Assembly: GCA_024638645.1 (NCBI GenBank)
Contig: JAHEJX010000006.1
Location: forward strand, 1 to 64,000
Direction: 5' to 3'
DNA length: 64,000 nt
Origin: Actinomycetes bacterium
Lineage (GTDB): Bacteria > Actinomycetota > Acidimicrobiia > Spongiisociales > UBA5794
Each line of letters opens with the position of its first letter. Positions within the stretch are counted from its first letter, which is position 1. Below are positions 2,750-32,011 of the stretch, one piece after another. Under the pieces are notes generated by a model. The model did no database searches. It saw only the letters and a list, made by a program, of their open reading frames with translations, and had not been told where the DNA came from. The position numbers and the translations under genes are program-made.

Positions 2750-3429
2750 GCCGGCTCGCCCTCGAGCCGGTAGCCCGCTCCAATCACGGTTTCGATAGTG
2801 TCCACTCCCCCAACGTTGCGCAGCTTCTTGCGCAGGTTGCTCACAGTCACGCGCACTGTGTTTGTGAATGGGTCGGCATGTTCGTCCCACACGTGGTCGA
2901 GCAGATCTTCAGCGGACACGATCTCACCGGCGTGGAGCATCAAATAGCGCAGCAGCGCGAACTCTTTCGTAGTCAATTCGAGCGGCTGCTCGCCGTAGGA
3001 CACAACACGCTTGGCGGCGTCGAGATAGATCGGCCCGATCTGCATGGCCGATCCTTGTGTCGGAGTGTCGCGGCGCAGCAGGGCGCGCACCCTGGCGAGC
3101 ATCTCTTGGAAGTCGAAGGGTTTGACGAGGTAATCGTCTGCTCCGTCGTCGAGACCGTCGATTCTGTCCCGAACCTCGTCGCGCGCCGTAACCATGAGGA
3201 TCCTTGGACCAGGCATGATGCCTTGGGCGCGGAGATGGCGAGCGATGTCGCGCCCGTCGTCGTCCGGCAGGTTCAGGTCGAGTGTCACGAGATCGTACGG
3301 ATTGACATCGAGTTTCTCGCGAGCTGTGACGCCGTCATTGGCGACATCAACTGCATAACCTTCTCGAGTGAGGCCGCGGGCGATGGCATCGGCCAGGTCC
3401 ACCTCATCTTCGACAACAAGAATGCGCAT
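2746..3429 (-). CDS. OmpR/PhoB-family response regulator
   Basis: About 227 residues from the ATG at 3429 (MRILVVEDE); an upstream ATG at 3453 would add eight unlikely residues. The receiver has the acidic pair ED at 7-8, phosphoacceptor Asp51 in TLDLNLPDDDG, and the conserved Lys in YLVKPF. The C-terminal half is a winged helix (LTTKEFALLRYLM, then TVRVTVSNLRKKL). It binds DNA as a phosphorylated dimer and is translationally coupled to its kinase by a 4-nt overlap. It is divergent from the nuclease gene at 3516, with about 86 nt of shared promoter space. Confidence 0.93.
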   Translation of the reverse strand: MRILVVEDEVDLADAIARGLTREGYAVDVANDGVTAREKLDVNPYDLVTLDLNLPDDDGRDIARHLRAQGIMPGPRILMVTARDEVRDRIDGLDDGADDYLVKPFDFQEMLARVRALLRRDTPTQGSAMQIGPIYLDAAKRVVSYGEQPLELTTKEFALLRYLMLHAGEIVSAEDLLDHVWDEHADPFTNTVRVTVSNLRKKLRNVGGVDTIETVIGAGYRLEGEPA

Positions 3430-3515
3430 TCGACCCGAAACGCTACACCGCACGAGTTAAACGTCGCCTAAAGCAATGTCGGCCCACTCCCGGTCCACGG
3501 CTACCGTTGCCGCCG

Positions 3516-4415
3516 ATGAAAAGGGCCTACTTCGCCGCTGTGCTCCTCTCGGTGTTGGCATCTGCCTGCGCCGGCACGAGCGACACGAGCGCGGCGCCGC
3601 GCAACCCGACTACTGCTGGACCCGATTCGGGCTCTTTGCCGCTACAGACGACCGCAACCATCGACATCCCGGACGGTGACAGCGCCAGGGTCGTCCGCAT
3701 ATTCGACGGTGACTCCTTTGAGGCCGACTTCGACGGCCGGGTGGTGGAAGTGCGGATGCTCGGGATCAACGCCCCTGAGAGGGACGAATGTCACGGCGAC
3801 CAAGCCCGAGAGAGGCTCCGCGAGCTGATCGGTGAGGGAGAGATCACTCTGGTCGCCGACGGCGAGGACACCGAAGACAGGTTCGGCCGCCTCCTCCGCT
3901 CGGTTTACAACGCCACTTCCTTCGTCAACGCCACCATGGTCGGCGAAGGCCATGCGGTGGCGCTCCAGAGTGGCGACCCGCAGGAGGCCGCCCTCACCAC
4001 ACTCCTCGATGAGGCAGCAGCGGGCGGGCTCGGCATGTGGGCACCAACGGCCTGCGGCAACGATGCACCGGGCGGCGTCGAGATCGCCGAGATTGAGTAC
4101 GACCCGCCGGGCCGGGATTGGGAGAACAAGAACGAGGAGTGGGTGGTCCTATTCAACGACACCACGGACTCCATTGATGTGAGTGGCTGGATACTGCGCG
4201 ACGAGTCGTCGACCCACCGCTACGAATTCACGGATGGCGAGACGATCGAGCCGGCAGCCGCCCTTCGCGTTCGTACGGGATGCGGCGAAGACCGCGGCGC
4301 CGACCGCTACTGGTGTGCAGACGATGCCGTGTGGTCGAACGGTGGCGACACGGTCATTCTGCAGACGGCAAACGGCACCGTGGTCGATTGGGTCCGCTAC
4401 GACGGGGATTATTAG
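3516..4415 (+). CDS. Secreted thermonuclease (SNase) with C-terminal lamin-tail domain
   Basis: About 299 residues from the ATG at 3516; a TTG nine bases earlier is also open. The N-terminus is a lipoprotein-type signal (VLLSVLASAC). The SNase fold follows: DGDSFEADF, VRMLGINAPERDE and EDRFGRLLRSVY carry the Arg/Glu/Arg residues expected for Ca-dependent cleavage of DNA and RNA. From about residue 185 the sequence matches a lamin-tail domain (IEYDPPGRDW, NEEWVVLFNDT, VDVSGWILRDE-like, ending VVDWVRYDGDY). Lamin-tail domains are common on extracellular nucleases and may tether or bind ligand. Likely cell-surface nucleic-acid scavenging. Confidence 0.88.
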   Translation: MKRAYFAAVLLSVLASACAGTSDTSAAPRNPTTAGPDSGSLPLQTTATIDIPDGDSARVVRIFDGDSFEADFDGRVVEVRMLGINAPERDECHGDQARERLRELIGEGEITLVADGEDTEDRFGRLLRSVYNATSFVNATMVGEGHAVALQSGDPQEAALTTLLDEAAAGGLGMWAPTACGNDAPGGVEIAEIEYDPPGRDWENKNEEWVVLFNDTTDSIDVSGWILRDESSTHRYEFTDGETIEPAAALRVRTGCGEDRGADRYWCADDAVWSNGGDTVILQTANGTVVDWVRYDGDY

Positions 4416-4420
4416 GAAAG

Positions 4421-4458
4421 CGTATCTCGTATCTCGTATCTGGCACAAGACACGAGAT
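4421..4458. repeat. Heptamer repeat patch with inverted half
   Basis: Three perfect tandem copies of CGTATCT at 4421-4441, followed after 9 nt by an inverted match (ACGAGATAC, 4452-4460 region) that can fold back on the direct copies. It begins 5 nt after the nuclease stop codon. It shares the 7-nt period and TA-centred unit with five other patches in this window. Confidence 0.75.
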
Positions 4459-4471
4459 ACCGGAAACACAA

Positions 4472-4497
4472 AGGGGACCCGCCGTGGCGAGTCCCCT
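4472..4497. terminator. Bidirectional hairpin between convergent genes
   Basis: Arms AGGGGAC (4472-4478) and GTCCCCT (4491-4497) form a 7-bp GC-rich stem, extendable inward by CGCC/GGCG with one mismatch. It sits between the plus-strand nuclease and the minus-strand RTX protease, where a bidirectional terminator is expected. No strong T-run on either side. Confidence 0.6.
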
Positions 4498-4519
4498 GCG
4501 ATTCTTGGCCCAGTCGGCC

Positions 4520-6604
4520 TTACAGACCGGCTGCTGTCATCGAGGTCAGGACCTCGCCTGCCTTCTCGATGTTCCAGGTCCGCACCTTCAACAGATCGAG
4601 ATCCTCGATGGGAATCGAGACGATGAAGCCTGCGCCGTCGGCATGGTCGAGGGGGTAGCTACGGAACGAAGCGCTGACCACCTCGTTGCCGGCAGCGTCG
4701 ACGCCCACAATGCGATGGTCGCCCAGGGTGGGGCCGAAGCCAAGGCGGTCGACGATGCTCACCTTCGAGATCTGCGCCGCGGCGACGTTGCCCACAAGGT
4801 TTTCTTGCAGTCCGCCCTGCGCCCAGTTGGTTGGGACCATGCCCTGGAACTGCACGTACCTGGTGCCGTCTGGTGCGGGAGCGGAGTCGAGCTCGAGATC
4901 GGTATCCCACCCGAACCCGCCGGTGCGGAATGCGAGCACGTTGGCGAAGTTGTAGTCGCTCACCCACTCCGGGTTGCAGTAGCTCATGAGGTCGACATAT
5001 ACCGCGGGGTCGTAGAGCGCACCGGTCTCGATGTCGTATCCCCAGGTCCCGATGCCACCACCGGCATACGGATAGTCGGGGTCGGGCCCGCTTGGACCGC
5101 CACACGGGGCATGCGGGAGATTCAAGTTGTGCCCGGTCTCGTGAGCAATGGTCTCTTCGTTCTGGATCGAAACCGCCGCCGGCAACCCGATCCAACCGAT
5201 GCCGCCGATCCCGGGGCTGAGGCCGCCGGGTGGCAACAAAGCGTGATACTGACGATTCGGATTCTCCGCCTGCTGCAGCGACAGCATCTCGTTGACCAGA
5301 GTGACCCAGTCTTGGGATGTGCCCGTAGCGTTTTGGAACACATAGTTGTCGCGAACCTGAACGTTGTAGTCGCCAACCGGATGAACCCGGAAGGTCTTGT
5401 CGAGAAGGCTCTTCGCCTGACTGAGCGAGACGTTGGCCGAGTTGCCACTGTACGGACCGCCCTGGATCGTGATAGGCACGATCGTGATCTTCATCCTCGG
5501 CACGTCCTGCGTGTCGAGGTCAAGCCAGTTCTGCGACGGGTACCGGTTGTTGTTCTCGTTGGACTCGAGCGTGACATCCGCAGGATCGATTACGACATAC
5601 ATGTCTGCGCCGGGCAGGAGGAGTGTCTCGTCGAAAACGTAGTTGTAGGTCGAGTCAAGGTCGCCGATGTCCGGGTTGGTGGGAATCGTTGCCGGGCCAA
5701 CGAGCGTGGCGCTACCTGTCGTGCTATTGACCCGCCAGTGCACCCTCATCACCGGTGCCGGGGTGTTGGGCTGATTGGCCGTTACAAAGACTCTCACAAT
5801 GCCCGCCCGCTTTTCGACCGTGCCGACGCGTTGGTTGGCAGCCTGGTCGGAGTCGGCCTGCGGTACAGCCTGACTGATGAGGAATCGTTCGAACTTGAAA
5901 TCGAGCGGATCCATCTCGCAGAAGTTCTCCGTCTCGGCTCCGCAGCGATCTTGGCCCATGCCTCCGTTCGTGACGTCGTTTCCGCCACCTCCGACAAGCG
6001 TGTCTCCGCCCTTGTTGCCTCTCAGGGTGTCGTCGCCAGCCTTACCTGTGAGACGGTCTGCGCCGTCGCCGCCTTCGAGAACGTCGTTACCGTCGCCACC
6101 GTTGAGGAAATCCCGGCCGATTCCACCGGTGAGCGTGTCGATCCTCTTGTCGCCCCGGAGGGTGTCTCTACCCTCGCCACCGTCGATGGTGTCTCTTCCA
6201 TTACCGCCCTGAAGCGTGTCGTTGCCGGCTGAGCCGTTCATCTTGTCGTTGCCGTCACCGCCCTTGACGATGTCGTTGCCCGCGCCGGCGAACAGATTGT
6301 CTGGACCAGCTCCGCCCTTGAGGATGTCATCGCCGTCGCCACCGCAGATGGTGTCGGCGCCGTCGAGGCCGGTGATCGTGTCGTTACCCGCTAGGCCGTG
6401 GATGACGTCAGCACCCGCCGTGCCGGTGAGCACATCGTCGCCGGCGGTTCCGGTGATTGTCACCGTCTTGCCTGCGCATTTGAGTGCCGCAGCCTCGGAG
6501 GCCGTTGGAACTGCAACCAGTAGCGCCGAAACCAAGAGAGCAACCCCCATCACTGTGATGGCCGCTCGACGGTTCCTGGTCTGCGTCGAAATCAACTTCT
6601 GCAC
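4520..6604 (-). CDS. Secreted metzincin-like metalloprotease with N-terminal RTX repeats
   Basis: A 694-residue protein from a GTG at 6604. It has a Sec signal peptide (hydrophobic core about 18-32, ASEA-like cleavage), then about 19 RTX nonapeptides of GGxGxDxLx type at roughly 52-222, which bind Ca2+ and fold after export. The C-terminal half has a zinc motif HETGHNLNLPH followed by PC and, about 50 residues later, a Met-turn-like VDLMSYC; this resembles the M66-type and metzincin peptidases. RTX arrays usually lie C-terminal to the protease, so the order here is reversed. Probably digests extracellular protein. Expressed alone, between terminators. Confidence 0.85.
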   Translation of the reverse strand: MQKLISTQTRNRRAAITVMGVALLVSALLVAVPTASEAAALKCAGKTVTITGTAGDDVLTGTAGADVIHGLAGNDTITGLDGADTICGGDGDDILKGGAGPDNLFAGAGNDIVKGGDGNDKMNGSAGNDTLQGGNGRDTIDGGEGRDTLRGDKRIDTLTGGIGRDFLNGGDGNDVLEGGDGADRLTGKAGDDTLRGNKGGDTLVGGGGNDVTNGGMGQDRCGAETENFCEMDPLDFKFERFLISQAVPQADSDQAANQRVGTVEKRAGIVRVFVTANQPNTPAPVMRVHWRVNSTTGSATLVGPATIPTNPDIGDLDSTYNYVFDETLLLPGADMYVVIDPADVTLESNENNNRYPSQNWLDLDTQDVPRMKITIVPITIQGGPYSGNSANVSLSQAKSLLDKTFRVHPVGDYNVQVRDNYVFQNATGTSQDWVTLVNEMLSLQQAENPNRQYHALLPPGGLSPGIGGIGWIGLPAAVSIQNEETIAHETGHNLNLPHAPCGGPSGPDPDYPYAGGGIGTWGYDIETGALYDPAVYVDLMSYCNPEWVSDYNFANVLAFRTGGFGWDTDLELDSAPAPDGTRYVQFQGMVPTNWAQGGLQENLVGNVAAAQISKVSIVDRLGFGPTLGDHRIVGVDAAGNEVVSASFRSYPLDHADGAGFIVSIPIEDLDLLKVRTWNIEKAGEVLTSMTAAGL

Positions 6605-21866: not shown

Positions 21867-21870
21867 TTCG

Positions 21871-21943
21871 TAGCCCCGACCGGATTCGAACCGGCGTTAC
21901 CGCCTTGAGAGGGCGGCGTCCTAGGCCCCTAGACGACGGGGCC
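21871..21943 (-). tRNA. tRNA-Glu (CTC)
   Basis: A 73-nt cloverleaf. The anticodon arm CCGCC-CTCTCAA-GGCGG gives anticodon CTC; the T-arm GCCGG-TTCGAAT-CCGGT, U8, A14 and discriminator A are in place. CCA is not encoded. It is 5 nt from the terminator, with tRNA-Gln 28 nt upstream, likely one transcript. Confidence 0.96.
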
Positions 21944-21971
21944 GCAATCTGCGACCAATGCCGCAAAGGCG

Positions 21972-22043
21972 CTCGGGGGGGAGGACTCGAACCCCCAACG
22001 ACAGGACCAGAACCTGCTGTGTTACCAATTACACCACCCCCGA
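21972..22043 (-). tRNA. tRNA-Gln (CTG)
   Basis: A 72-nt cloverleaf. Acceptor TCGGGGG pairs with CCCCCGA; anticodon loop TTCTGGT gives anticodon CTG; T-loop TTCGAGT; discriminator G. CCA is not encoded. In organisms without GlnRS this tRNA is first charged with Glu by GltX and amidated by GatCAB; both genes are in this window. Confidence 0.95.
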
Positions 22044-28311: not shown

Positions 28312-28761
28312 ATGCGAAGATTCGTGGCCGCCGGCTTCGGTGCCGGCTTGCTGCCCAAACGCCTCTACGGAAGCCACAACGGGGCCGGGACTTTTGGAGC
28401 CGCCGTTGCGCTCATCGTCGGAGTGTTCCTGATCCCTTCTCCGTGGTGGATTGATCTGATGGTTGCGCTCGTTGCGGTCGGTGTCTCCCTGTGGGCTTCC
28501 GCGCCGTTTGCCGTGGATGGCGCAGACCCGGCATGGGTGGCGATAGACGAGGTTGCAGGCACGCTCGTCGCCATGATCGGTCTCAGCGGATGGCCATTCG
28601 CCGCCGCTGTGGCCGTGGCTCGACTGCTCGACATCTTCAAGGTGGCCCCCGGAATCAGCAGGGCGGAGTCACTGCATGGGCCGCTGGGCGTAACGATGGA
28701 CGACGTGGTCGCCGGGCTCTACGGACTGGGGATTGGGTGGCTCCTCATGGGGTTGCTGTAG
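28312..28761 (+). CDS. pgpA: Phosphatidylglycerophosphatase A
   Basis: About 149 residues from the ATG at 28312 (28279 is an alternative start). The PgpA motifs GAGTFG, WVAIDEVAG and VTMDDVVAG are present with 3-4 membrane helices. It dephosphorylates phosphatidylglycerol phosphate to phosphatidylglycerol in the membrane. Its 3' end overlaps the end of the convergent substrate-binding protein gene by 17 nt. Confidence 0.88.
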   Translation: MRRFVAAGFGAGLLPKRLYGSHNGAGTFGAAVALIVGVFLIPSPWWIDLMVALVAVGVSLWASAPFAVDGADPAWVAIDEVAGTLVAMIGLSGWPFAAAVAVARLLDIFKVAPGISRAESLHGPLGVTMDDVVAGLYGLGIGWLLMGLL

Positions 28762-29518
28762 CTGCACCCGGGCGATAGACAGGCTCAGCGAATACGACCG
28801 CGTCGGCGGCCACTATTCCGCGAACACCGGCATCGCTGACCAACCAGTTGAAGAATTCCAGCCCCGCTTCATCGACCCGAATCGCCGAATACTGGTTGGC
28901 GAGGGTGGCAGCGTCATCCAGGGGCACCGGTACGAGGTCGATGGTGTCAGCGGCACTCGCGTACACCCCAGCCTCGACCAAGGTGAAGCCACCGATCTGA
29001 TCGGCGACCTGGAGCGTCAGGCCCATACCCTGGCCCGTAGCCACGTACCAGGCACCTTCCGGCGTAACGCCGGCTTCGGCCCACAAGGCGAGCTCGCGGC
29101 TGTGGGTGCCCGACCCATCATCTCGCGTAACGAACTTGTGACCGGCTGCTGCGATCGCCCCCATTGCATCTGCAGCCGACGCCGTCGAGATACCTCCGAC
29201 GAGTTCGAATGGTCCGACCAAGAGAAAGCGGCTGTGGAATACACCAGCGCGCTGCGCAGTGGGGTTATTCGCCATGAACTGCAATTCCTGACGCTCATCG
29301 TGGACGACCACCAGATCGAGTGACCCCTGAGCCGCCAACTCGAGCAGCTCCGCCGTGGAACCGGGCACGATCGATAGGTCGGCACCGTACTGCTCTTCGA
29401 GCGCCGCCATGAAGCCGGAGTCGACCGTTGTCGTGCCGGCGCCCGCAACCACCCTGTCCCCGCCGCCACAGGCGGTGGTCACTAGGGCAACCATGAGAAT
29501 CCAGCGGCGCCGAATCAC
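28745..29518 (-). CDS. tupA: Tungstate-type ABC transporter substrate-binding lipoprotein
   Basis: 257 residues from a GTG start. Lipoprotein signal ending VTTAC, then TupA-like features: TTTVDSG (oxyanion loop), VVHDERQE, RDDGSGTHSRELALW, and WYVATGQGMGLTLQVAD. TupA captures tungstate for the ABC importer; molybdate homologues are similar. Last gene of the 31562-28745 operon, coupled to the ATPase gene by a GTGA overlap. The anion is inferred from family resemblance. Confidence 0.85.
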   Translation of the reverse strand: MIRRRWILMVALVTTACGGGDRVVAGAGTTTVDSGFMAALEEQYGADLSIVPGSTAELLELAAQGSLDLVVVHDERQELQFMANNPTAQRAGVFHSRFLLVGPFELVGGISTASAADAMGAIAAAGHKFVTRDDGSGTHSRELALWAEAGVTPEGAWYVATGQGMGLTLQVADQIGGFTLVEAGVYASAADTIDLVPVPLDDAATLANQYSAIRVDEAGLEFFNWLVSDAGVRGIVAADAVVFAEPVYRPGAATATP

Positions 29519-30534
29519 TGCTTGGCGGAGGTGACGGCTCGGGCAGCGGTTGCCTTGACCGAGAGCGCAACCTTGTCGTCAACGGTGATGCCCATGCCTG
29601 CCATAGAGCCCTCCGTGATGAGCGCGGCGACGGGCTGTCCCACATCGACGACGACCTCGATCAACCTTCCCACATCACCGAGCGAACGAACGCTGCCGAG
29701 CCAGTGGTTGCGAGCTGAATCCTGGCCCTCCGTGGCCGTCGCAGAGGAAACCGTGTGCAAGGTCACTGCGTCCGCCCCAAAGGTGACCCGGACCTCGCTA
29801 CCTGCCGCTTGCTCGCCGAGCGCCCACACCATCAGACCAGAACAAGACACTTGCACCAAAGGACCGTCTTGTTTGACAACCGTGCCGACCATGACGTTCT
29901 GATGACCCAGCAGATGGGCTACATCCTGGTTGGCCGGGTCGAGAAATATCTCCTGGGGCGGACCTACCGACCGAACTGCACCGTCGACCATCAGCGCGAC
30001 GCGGTCGGCAAAAGCAACCGCAATGTCTCGATCATGAGTCACGACTACCGCGGTGCGCTCGCCAATGGCGTCGCCGGCTACGGCAATCACGTTGTCGCGA
30101 TCCTTGGCGCCGATAGCCGCCAGCGGTTCATCCAAGGCCACCAAGCTTCGCCCCGAAGCGAGGGTCCTCGCCAGAGCGAGCCTTTGCCGTTCGCCTCCGC
30201 TGAGGCGAGCTGCGGGAGTCCCCAGCAGATTGGACACACCGAGGCGTTTCGCCAGGACTTCTGCGCGATTCGACTCTTCTCCAGCCAACCCCATCAACAG
30301 ATTGCGCCGGCCACTGCCGCGGAACATGAAGGGGCGTTGCGGGAGATAGGCGACGTCCTCACCGCTACGTTCTCCGATGACCCCGGCGATCAGTCGCAGC
30401 AGGGTGGACTTGCCCGCGCCGTTGGGCCCAAAGATCACCATTCGCTCGCCGCTGCGTATCCCCAAGTCGGTCGGAGCGACAATCTGCATGCCGTCACTCT
30501 CCCAAGCGAGCTCGCCGAAATCGACGGCCCTCAT
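29515..30534 (-). CDS. tupC: Tungstate-type ABC transporter ATP-binding protein with TOBE-like tail
   Basis: About 339 residues from the ATG at 30534, fixed by an ATGA overlap with the permease stop. Walker A GPNGAGKST, signature LSGGERQRLALA, Walker B LVALDEPLAA, switch His in VVVTHD. A C-terminal region of about 130 residues after residue 210 (VMVGTVVKQDGPLVQV) looks like a TOBE/Mop oxyanion-sensing domain, as in ModC. It powers the importer and the tail could give feedback inhibition by the anion. Confidence 0.85.
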   Translation of the reverse strand: MRAVDFGELAWESDGMQIVAPTDLGIRSGERMVIFGPNGAGKSTLLRLIAGVIGERSGEDVAYLPQRPFMFRGSGRRNLLMGLAGEESNRAEVLAKRLGVSNLLGTPAARLSGGERQRLALARTLASGRSLVALDEPLAAIGAKDRDNVIAVAGDAIGERTAVVVTHDRDIAVAFADRVALMVDGAVRSVGPPQEIFLDPANQDVAHLLGHQNVMVGTVVKQDGPLVQVSCSGLMVWALGEQAAGSEVRVTFGADAVTLHTVSSATATEGQDSARNHWLGSVRSLGDVGRLIEVVVDVGQPVAALITEGSMAGMGITVDDKVALSVKATAARAVTSAKQ

Positions 30535-31232
30535 GCTGCCGGCTCCCCACGCAGCTGCGCCCAGGTCAGGGCCAGGTTGACGATGAGGGCCACCGCCAGC
30601 AGGACGAGACCGAGCCCAAGAGCCGCCCCGAGATTGGACTGTCGTGCCTCCTGGACGATGGCAGTTGTCAGCACCCGAGTCTCCCCCTCGATGTTGCCGC
30701 CAACTACGAGTACTGCGCCGACTTCGGCGATGACGCGTCCGAAGGCAGCGGCAACGGCGGCTGCAATCCCCGGCCATACCTCACGCGCCGCAATCCACGA
30801 GCGTCGCGACGCGCTCACGTTCAGGGCCGCCAGTTGCTCAACCGCATCGCCACTCAGATTCCGCACGGCGCCGGCAGTGACCCCGGCCGCTATCGGAAAG
30901 GCAAGCAGAGCCTGCGCCCCGATCATGGCGCCGGGCGTGAAGAGTGCGTCCCACGAGCCCAAGACGCCGTCATTCCAGAGAAGGATCAAGAGGAGGAGAC
31001 CGGCGAGGACCGGCGGGATTCCCATGCCCGTATTGACGAGCGCCAACACGAGACCGCGCCCCCGAAACCTGCTCAGACCGAGCCACACGCCGAACGGCAC
31101 ACCGACCAAAACGCCGATCGCCGTCGCCAATCCGGCCACGATGAGCGTCAATGCCAGGATCGTCCGCAGCTCGGGTCCGAACTCAAAGACATACCGAAAG
31201 GCGTCTCCGAGCACCTCACCTAAGAATTCCAT
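30531..31232 (-). CDS. tupB: Tungstate-type ABC transporter permease
   Basis: 233 residues with about five to six membrane helices. It has the BPD_transp_1 loop ALNVSASRRSWIAAREVWPGIAAA, the EAA motif that contacts the ATPase. Resembles TupB/WtpB. It is the second gene of the operon, three nt after the octapeptide-repeat membrane protein and coupled to the ATPase by ATGA. Confidence 0.85.
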   Translation of the reverse strand: MEFLGEVLGDAFRYVFEFGPELRTILALTLIVAGLATAIGVLVGVPFGVWLGLSRFRGRGLVLALVNTGMGIPPVLAGLLLLILLWNDGVLGSWDALFTPGAMIGAQALLAFPIAAGVTAGAVRNLSGDAVEQLAALNVSASRRSWIAAREVWPGIAAAVAAAFGRVIAEVGAVLVVGGNIEGETRVLTTAIVQEARQSNLGAALGLGLVLLAVALIVNLALTWAQLRGEPAA

Positions 31233-31235
31233 TGC

Positions 31236-31562
31236 CTACCTAAGGAATAGAAACCACGCGATTACAGCAAGTACTCCGAAGAAGACCGCAGCCTTCGTCG
31301 CGCTCTTGACAACCCCGTACCCGAAGCCGATTACCGCCATTACACCAATCAGGGCAAACAAGGGGTTCGATGACGCCGCCTCGATGAGGCCGGGAGGAAC
31401 TCGGTCCTGCAGCCCCTCCGGTAGTCGATCGATGATGTCCTGCGGAATCTTGTCGATCACGCCGTCTTCGAGCTGTTGCCGAATGTCCTCAGGAAGCCGT
31501 TCGAGAACCTCGTCGGGAATCGAGTCCACCGCGGATTGAAAACGGATGAATAGCGAGAGCAT
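31236..31562 (-). CDS. Small membrane protein with six octapeptide repeats
   Basis: 108 residues. Residues 15-62 are six back-to-back octads of the form [ILV]P-x-[DG]-[VIL]-x-[DE]-[RK] (for example IPDEVLER, LPEDIRQQ, IPQDIIDR, LPEGLQDR), with the third unit lacking Pro. Two to three C-terminal membrane helices follow (about 68-105). The family is not recognised. Only 3 nt separate it from tupB, so it is the first gene of the importer operon. The repeat region would be amphipathic, cytoplasmic or extracytoplasmic. A role in transport is inference. Confidence 0.75.
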   Translation of the reverse strand: MLSLFIRFQSAVDSIPDEVLERLPEDIRQQLEDGVIDKIPQDIIDRLPEGLQDRVPPGLIEAASSNPLFALIGVMAVIGFGYGVVKSATKAAVFFGVLAVIAWFLFLR

Positions 31563-31615
31563 GGGCGATAGCCTACCGGCGCATTCTTTCGCCGCACCTC
31601 AACTGATCGCGCCTT

Positions 31616-32011
31616 ATGACCCAGCAACAACTAGAGCTGAACAGGTCGTGGTGGCGGGGCGCCGCCCGCGCCGTCCTGCTGCGCTGTCCGCGTTGCGGGA
31701 AGGGAAGGGTTTTCCGCCGCCTAGTGATCATGAACGAGCAGTGTGCGGCTTGCCACCTCACTTTTGATCGTGGTCACGGCTATTGGCTGGGGTCGATGAT
31801 GTTCAACATGGCGTTCGCAATGGGGGCCGTGGTTGCCGTGTTCGTCCTGACCCTCGTCCTCACGAGCCCCGAACCGGACTGGGACCTGACGATCATCCTG
31901 GTGGTGACGATCGCACTCCTGTCACCGCTGCTCTTCTTTCCGTTCTCGCGAACTCTGTGGATCGCCGCGGAGCGGGCCGCCCGACTCCGGGATGGGACGG
32001 AATCAGAGTGA
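31616..32011 (+). CDS. DUF983 membrane protein with zinc-ribbon-like CxxC
   Basis: 131 residues. The N-terminus has LLRCPRCGKGRVF and NEQCAACHLTF, two CxxC knuckles, then two hydrophobic helices (about 58-83 and 88-108). This is the DUF983 pattern. The function is unknown; the ribbon faces the cytoplasm. Divergent from the octapeptide-repeat gene and 17 nt upstream of ppc. Confidence 0.85.
   Translation: MTQQQLELNRSWWRGAARAVLLRCPRCGKGRVFRRLVIMNEQCAACHLTFDRGHGYWLGSMMFNMAFAMGAVVAVFVLTLVLTSPEPDWDLTIILVVTIALLSPLLFFPFSRTLWIAAERAARLRDGTESE

Follow-up and report, generated by a model that had tools for sequence, protein, structure and literature searches.

The window, the whole 64,000-nucleotide stretch that was analysed, carries on its minus strand an open reading frame at 31236..31562 (start codon ATG, read from 31562 to 31236) encoding a small membrane protein of 108 amino acids. 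Residues 15-62 (31377..31520, minus strand) form six octads, in order IPDEVLER, LPEDIRQQ, LEDGVIDK, IPQDIIDR, LPEGLQDR and VPPGLIEA, with the proline missing from the third. The octad stretch is acidic, containing 13 Asp or Glu versus 5 Lys or Arg residues. Residues of the same class were found at positions i and i+8 in 23 of 40 pairs, a value reached by none of 100,000 shuffles, and when any period from 4 to 14 was allowed over the N-terminal 66 residues none of 20,000 shuffles reached the observed periodicity. The octads are followed by a hydrophobic core, residues 67-108 (31239..31364, minus strand), comprised of a first membrane segment (TM1, residues ~67-85), a basic loop (KSATK) and a second segment (TM2, residues ~90-107) with an invariant tryptophan, Trp103. 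The preliminary description of an octad-repeat membrane protein is thus borne out. Of the two to three helices that it proposed, two hydrophobic segments were identified but no third, residues 2-13 being partly hydrophobic and apparently too short to make a membrane helix. Comparison with genus-mates (73-76% identity) gave dN/dS ratios of ~0.05-0.09, placing the gene under purifying selection. The homologues and this selection, together with the period of eight and relatives that differ by whole octads, confirm that the reading frame and its repeats are real.

Downstream on the same strand are genes for an ABC permease (tupB, 30531..31232), an ABC ATPase (tupC, 29515..30534) and a substrate-binding protein (tupA, 28745..29518). 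The permease matched NCBIfam ABC_perm1 above the cut-off, the ATPase matched Pfam ABC_tran and TOBE, and the binding protein matched Pfam PBP_like_2. The mechanical reading frame of tupC extends to 30777, the likely start being at 30534 where it overlaps the tupB stop. A tungstate importer is the likeliest assignment of these genes, though an uncertain one since TupB and TupA (2.4e-24) were the best equivalog matches yet scored under the curated NCBIfam cut-offs (129 versus 320 bits and 86 versus 400 bits, respectively). The stop codon of the octad gene (TAG) is followed by three bases (GCA) and then by the ATG of tupB, and an AGG-type ribosome-binding sequence for the tupB start falls within the final codons of that gene. 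The proposal that the octad gene heads the tup operon, 3 nt from tupB, therefore stands, and six families of the order share the tight junction. The further proposal of production together with the importer is supported to the extent that the 3-nt gap makes co-translation with tupB probable, although this is deduced from adjacency. On the other side of the octad gene, at a distance of 53 nt, is a divergent DUF983 gene (31616..32011, plus strand; Pfam PF06170). A scan of the window against Rfam at gathering scores returned two tRNAs and nothing else, and riboswitch control was rejected. The tRNAs, tRNA-Glu(CTC) and tRNA-Gln(CTG), lie side by side at 21870-22043 (minus strand) and are ordinary.

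The octad protein had no match above curated cut-offs in Pfam or NCBIfam, and literature searches on the gene returned nothing. When the 16 relatives in alignment A1 were scanned against Pfam, the database used for this set, weak matches were obtained, the best at 6e-4 and each to one to three members. The matches to Tsr0524-like, UBM, CcmH and Gram_pos_anchor were rejected as below the cut-off or found in too few members; UBM, the ubiquitin-binding motif (PF14377), shares a short helix-LP-helix pattern with the octads and scored 11.1 bits against a gathering score of 23.3. Leucine-rich repeats of the LPxxVFxxL type, matched in the PDB (e.g. 5a5c), resemble the octads in LPxxVxxxL spacing and in a 24-residue unit equal to three octads. 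However, the octad unit is 8 residues rather than 20-29 and shows no LxxLxLxxN (no LxLxxN) pattern. Homology was rejected, the best single-stretch i-Evalues being 1.3-6 and the score a sum over many weak target repeats; the likeness is a chance resemblance of periodic sequences.

Relatives were detected in 20 of 60 related genomes with the full-length protein as query. A full-length profile, run on 138 genomes of the order, detected them in 55, a few of these matches being weak or confined to octads (two proteins of family f2). The named relatives (GTDB r220) are mostly from metagenome-assembled Acidimicrobiia. A profile of the core by itself placed the family in one order and in two genomes of f42, another family of the class (~1e-6). 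In a sample of 198 genomes of the phylum, the core profile matched strongly only in the window and in a second genome from the same order. A search for octads in other proteomes, as suggested in the preliminary description, retrieved nothing at E <= 1e-5 besides the window from the 198 phylum genomes with a made-up consensus octad query. These results show that the octad-linker family extends across one order of Acidimicrobiia and rarely beyond.

The constant part of the family is the C-terminal core, in which TM1, a loop with two or three basic residues, TM2 and the invariant tryptophan are aligned throughout (alignments A1 and A2). In families f2, f3, f4 and f5 the core is nearly the entire protein, 45-47 amino acids from the likely start in most, without octads; in f8 and f6 it is preceded by a short N-terminal segment, also without octads; and in f1, f7 and f42 octads are present, recognisable octads and core occurring in f42 with no tup alongside. 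Length changes by whole octads: two proteins of genus g11 are shorter by exactly 24 residues and one of g18 is longer by 8. The third octad is without its proline in nearly all members, indicating that each repeat is specific to its position and that the array is old, not a recent duplication. Since many relatives that head tup (45-75 amino acids) have no octads, the octads cannot be the tie to tungstate. The protein is best read as a member of a small membrane protein family of Acidimicrobiia, unnamed in Pfam and NCBIfam, of which the C-terminal membrane pair would be the working part. The family so defined has a minimal core of 45 amino acids and an octad extension that varies by whole repeats.

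The site of the core gene was compared using GatA, GatB, HAD, LCP, PEPC, Tup, SerA, PgpA and S9 peptidase as anchors and is conserved in the order gatA-gatB-HAD-CORE-[tupBCA]-[serA]-pgpA. With the window counted, tupB is directly next and on the same strand in 28 of 57 core loci, so that the place beside tup is kept in these but not in the other 29, where the next gene is serA (5), convergent pgpA (14) or none of the tested genes (10). Where both are at the site the core gene and tup are always adjacent on the same strand, and in nearly all tup-positive core loci with a clear tupB start the two genes either overlap by a few nt or are 0-10 nt apart. Core without tup was found in 15 genera (for example g10, g11 and g18 in f1, all genera of f7, most of f8, and g57 in f2), besides g47 with both kinds of core locus. 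In genome G031 (L026 and L027) two diverged octad-tup-PEPC loci occur in one bin, which has a listed contamination of 6% and may be a strain mixture. In a search of the 138 genomes, none of those with the core gene but no tup yielded a TupB orthologue scoring above 200 bits; many of their assemblies are incomplete, although the site is contiguous. Conversely, tup was found without the core gene in 20 loci, in several of which ~40-180 nt separate tupB from the next gene. At the level of 61 genera, tallied by hand, 11 have both, 15 core only, 9 tup only and 26 neither (odds ratio 2.1, Fisher p = 0.27). A GatB tree of 49 loci, midpoint-rooted so that the direction of changes is not fixed, gave 8 changes among three states, of which the branches with good support require a minimum of 4 for core only and 3 for tup only. 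Core and tup are thus not mutually dependent, for lineages keep either gene alone. The preliminary description held that homologues in unrelated contexts would reduce the link to chance; instead the tup-less homologues are mostly in the same syntenic neighbourhood, and the link to tup therefore resembles inherited gene order rather than functional partnership. The locus shows by example that close operon spacing, even when conserved in six families, can mislead about partnership.

A protein serving the importer only should experience relaxed selection upon loss of tup. In tup-less lineages dN/dS was 0.06-0.25 in 14 of 16 pairs and 0.43 and 0.54 in two, both of f8, while tup-positive pairs were mostly at 0.04-0.13 with outliers mostly at small dS; with synonymous sites close to saturated in many pairs the ratios are approximate, though values well below 1 are robust. 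The core gene stays under purifying selection where tup is absent. A non-functional leader ORF whose translation merely couples ribosomes to tupB would be consistent with the tight junction and the ribosome-binding sequence within its end, but is largely refuted, and exceedingly improbable, in view of the strong purifying selection on amino acids that persists without tup.

AcrZ and KdpF are examples of small membrane proteins that modulate transporters. Such proteins are a known kind, reviewed in PMC10710835, and like the octad protein they are short, hydrophobic and encoded with a transporter; the octad protein differs in its two membrane segments, its octad linker and its retention without the transporter. 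By this precedent the octad protein could be an accessory subunit of the Tup importer or a regulator of its activity, the tup-less copies having been repurposed. The position of the gene would fit, since in six families it lies directly 5' of tupB, always on the same strand, separated by 0-10 nt or slightly overlapping. An accessory would be expected to be present wherever tupBCA is, to be lost along with it, and to be adjacent to and co-translated with tupB. The adjacency was found, with co-translation deduced from it, but 20 tup loci are without the core gene, the 29 loci with no tup adjacent keep it under selection, and across genera the association is not significant. This possibility is accordingly considered rather unlikely. 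The evidence speaks against a sensor dedicated to tungstate and against a subunit that the importer cannot do without, and the octad protein is probably not part of the importer. Of the roles first suggested, neither that of a metal or oxyanion sensor, as regards tungstate or oxyanions, nor that of a structural partner specific to the importer found support, in view of the 29 loci that keep the gene without tup, the 20 tup loci without it and the many octad-less relatives that head tup. The tup link is real as gene order and probable co-translation, and not as dependence.

Other neighbours were considered as partners. A general helper for insertion or assembly of membrane proteins, translated together with any such gene that comes next (TupB or a class A penicillin-binding protein), could explain a first cistron ahead of tupB in six families and, in one f42 genome, a position 25 nt ahead of a penicillin-binding protein gene. 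In g11 and part of f8, however, convergent pgpA comes next so that no membrane protein gene is headed, and the protein bears no likeness in Pfam or NCBIfam to known insertases; a helper of this kind seems quite improbable. The f42 arrangement is that of L182, where the octad protein gene (5379-5768, minus strand) lies upstream of the class A penicillin-binding protein gene (3071-5353, minus strand); in L181, from the other f42 genome, a penicillin-binding protein gene is on the same strand ~3.4 kb off. A divergent LytR-CpsA-Psr gene is beside the octad gene in all three genus-mates (L022, 6989-7858; L023, 6975-7844; L024, 6959-7828) and in many f8 genomes, and is missing from the window, where 31563-31615 leaves only 53 nt to the DUF983 gene. 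The octad protein might instead function in cell-wall assembly, acting alongside LytR-CpsA-Psr ligases or penicillin-binding proteins as a small partner whose octads extend into the wall. Consistent with this, among the genes tested it is the ligase gene that lies closest upstream in most f8 loci and in the f1 genera g1 and g20, and a penicillin-binding protein gene is a neighbour in f42. These neighbours give a hint of the cell wall, but a HAD phosphatase gene takes the upstream place in f2, f3, f4, f5 and g11, the ligase gene is absent from the site in the window, and divergently oriented neighbours say little about joint function, leaving the cell-wall role doubtful.

The loop between the membrane segments has a net charge of +2 to +3 in all 60 sequences (mean +2.3) and the N-terminal flank a mean of -1.2. 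Since the loop is positive and the N-terminal flank negative, the positive-inside rule predicts a cytoplasmic loop and extracytoplasmic octads, with both ends of the protein outside. Two AlphaFold models, both low in confidence (pLDDT 60 and 67), agree in placing short helices at the octads and disagree on the core, which is a hairpin in one and one long helix in the other.

Taken with the preceding comparisons, this topology suggests a membrane-anchored envelope adaptor, independent of tungstate and co-translated with tupB through inherited order where tup follows, a function proposed from sequence comparison and held at about even confidence. The two C-terminal segments joined by the cytoplasmic basic loop would be the working part, the hairpin docking on an integral membrane partner. 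The acidic octads would fold into short proline-capped helices and serve as an extracytoplasmic linker, variable in eight-residue steps, that sets spacing or offers an acidic surface outside the cell membrane. The same job would be done whether or not the cell imports tungstate, and where tup follows the octad gene would be the first cistron, translated with tupB. This reading is favoured by conservation of the core down to the 45-47 amino acid forms, by the same locus with or without tup, and by selection without tup. Counting against it are a core-tup spacing in six families tighter than inherited order alone requires, the two f8 pairs with the highest ratios, and the weakness of the models, one with a single long helix. 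A more speculative and distinctly unlikely extension of the adaptor reading is that the octads represent a new extracytoplasmic short-helix rod, a spacer adjustable in eight-residue steps on a two-helix anchor, serving as an envelope scaffold in Acidimicrobiia.

Tandem octads of similar type (IPEDFLDQ, LPQDFLDQ) were also seen in the two f2 proteins, encoded at L141 2-790 and L142 1987-2814 (both plus strand), which are 262-275 amino acids long, unrelated-looking and with one hydrophobic segment; that of L141 had no Pfam match. A weak octad match was further obtained to a secreted-looking protein of 199 amino acids (L143 3-602, plus strand) that contains many repeats of the DRxTDRxxD type.
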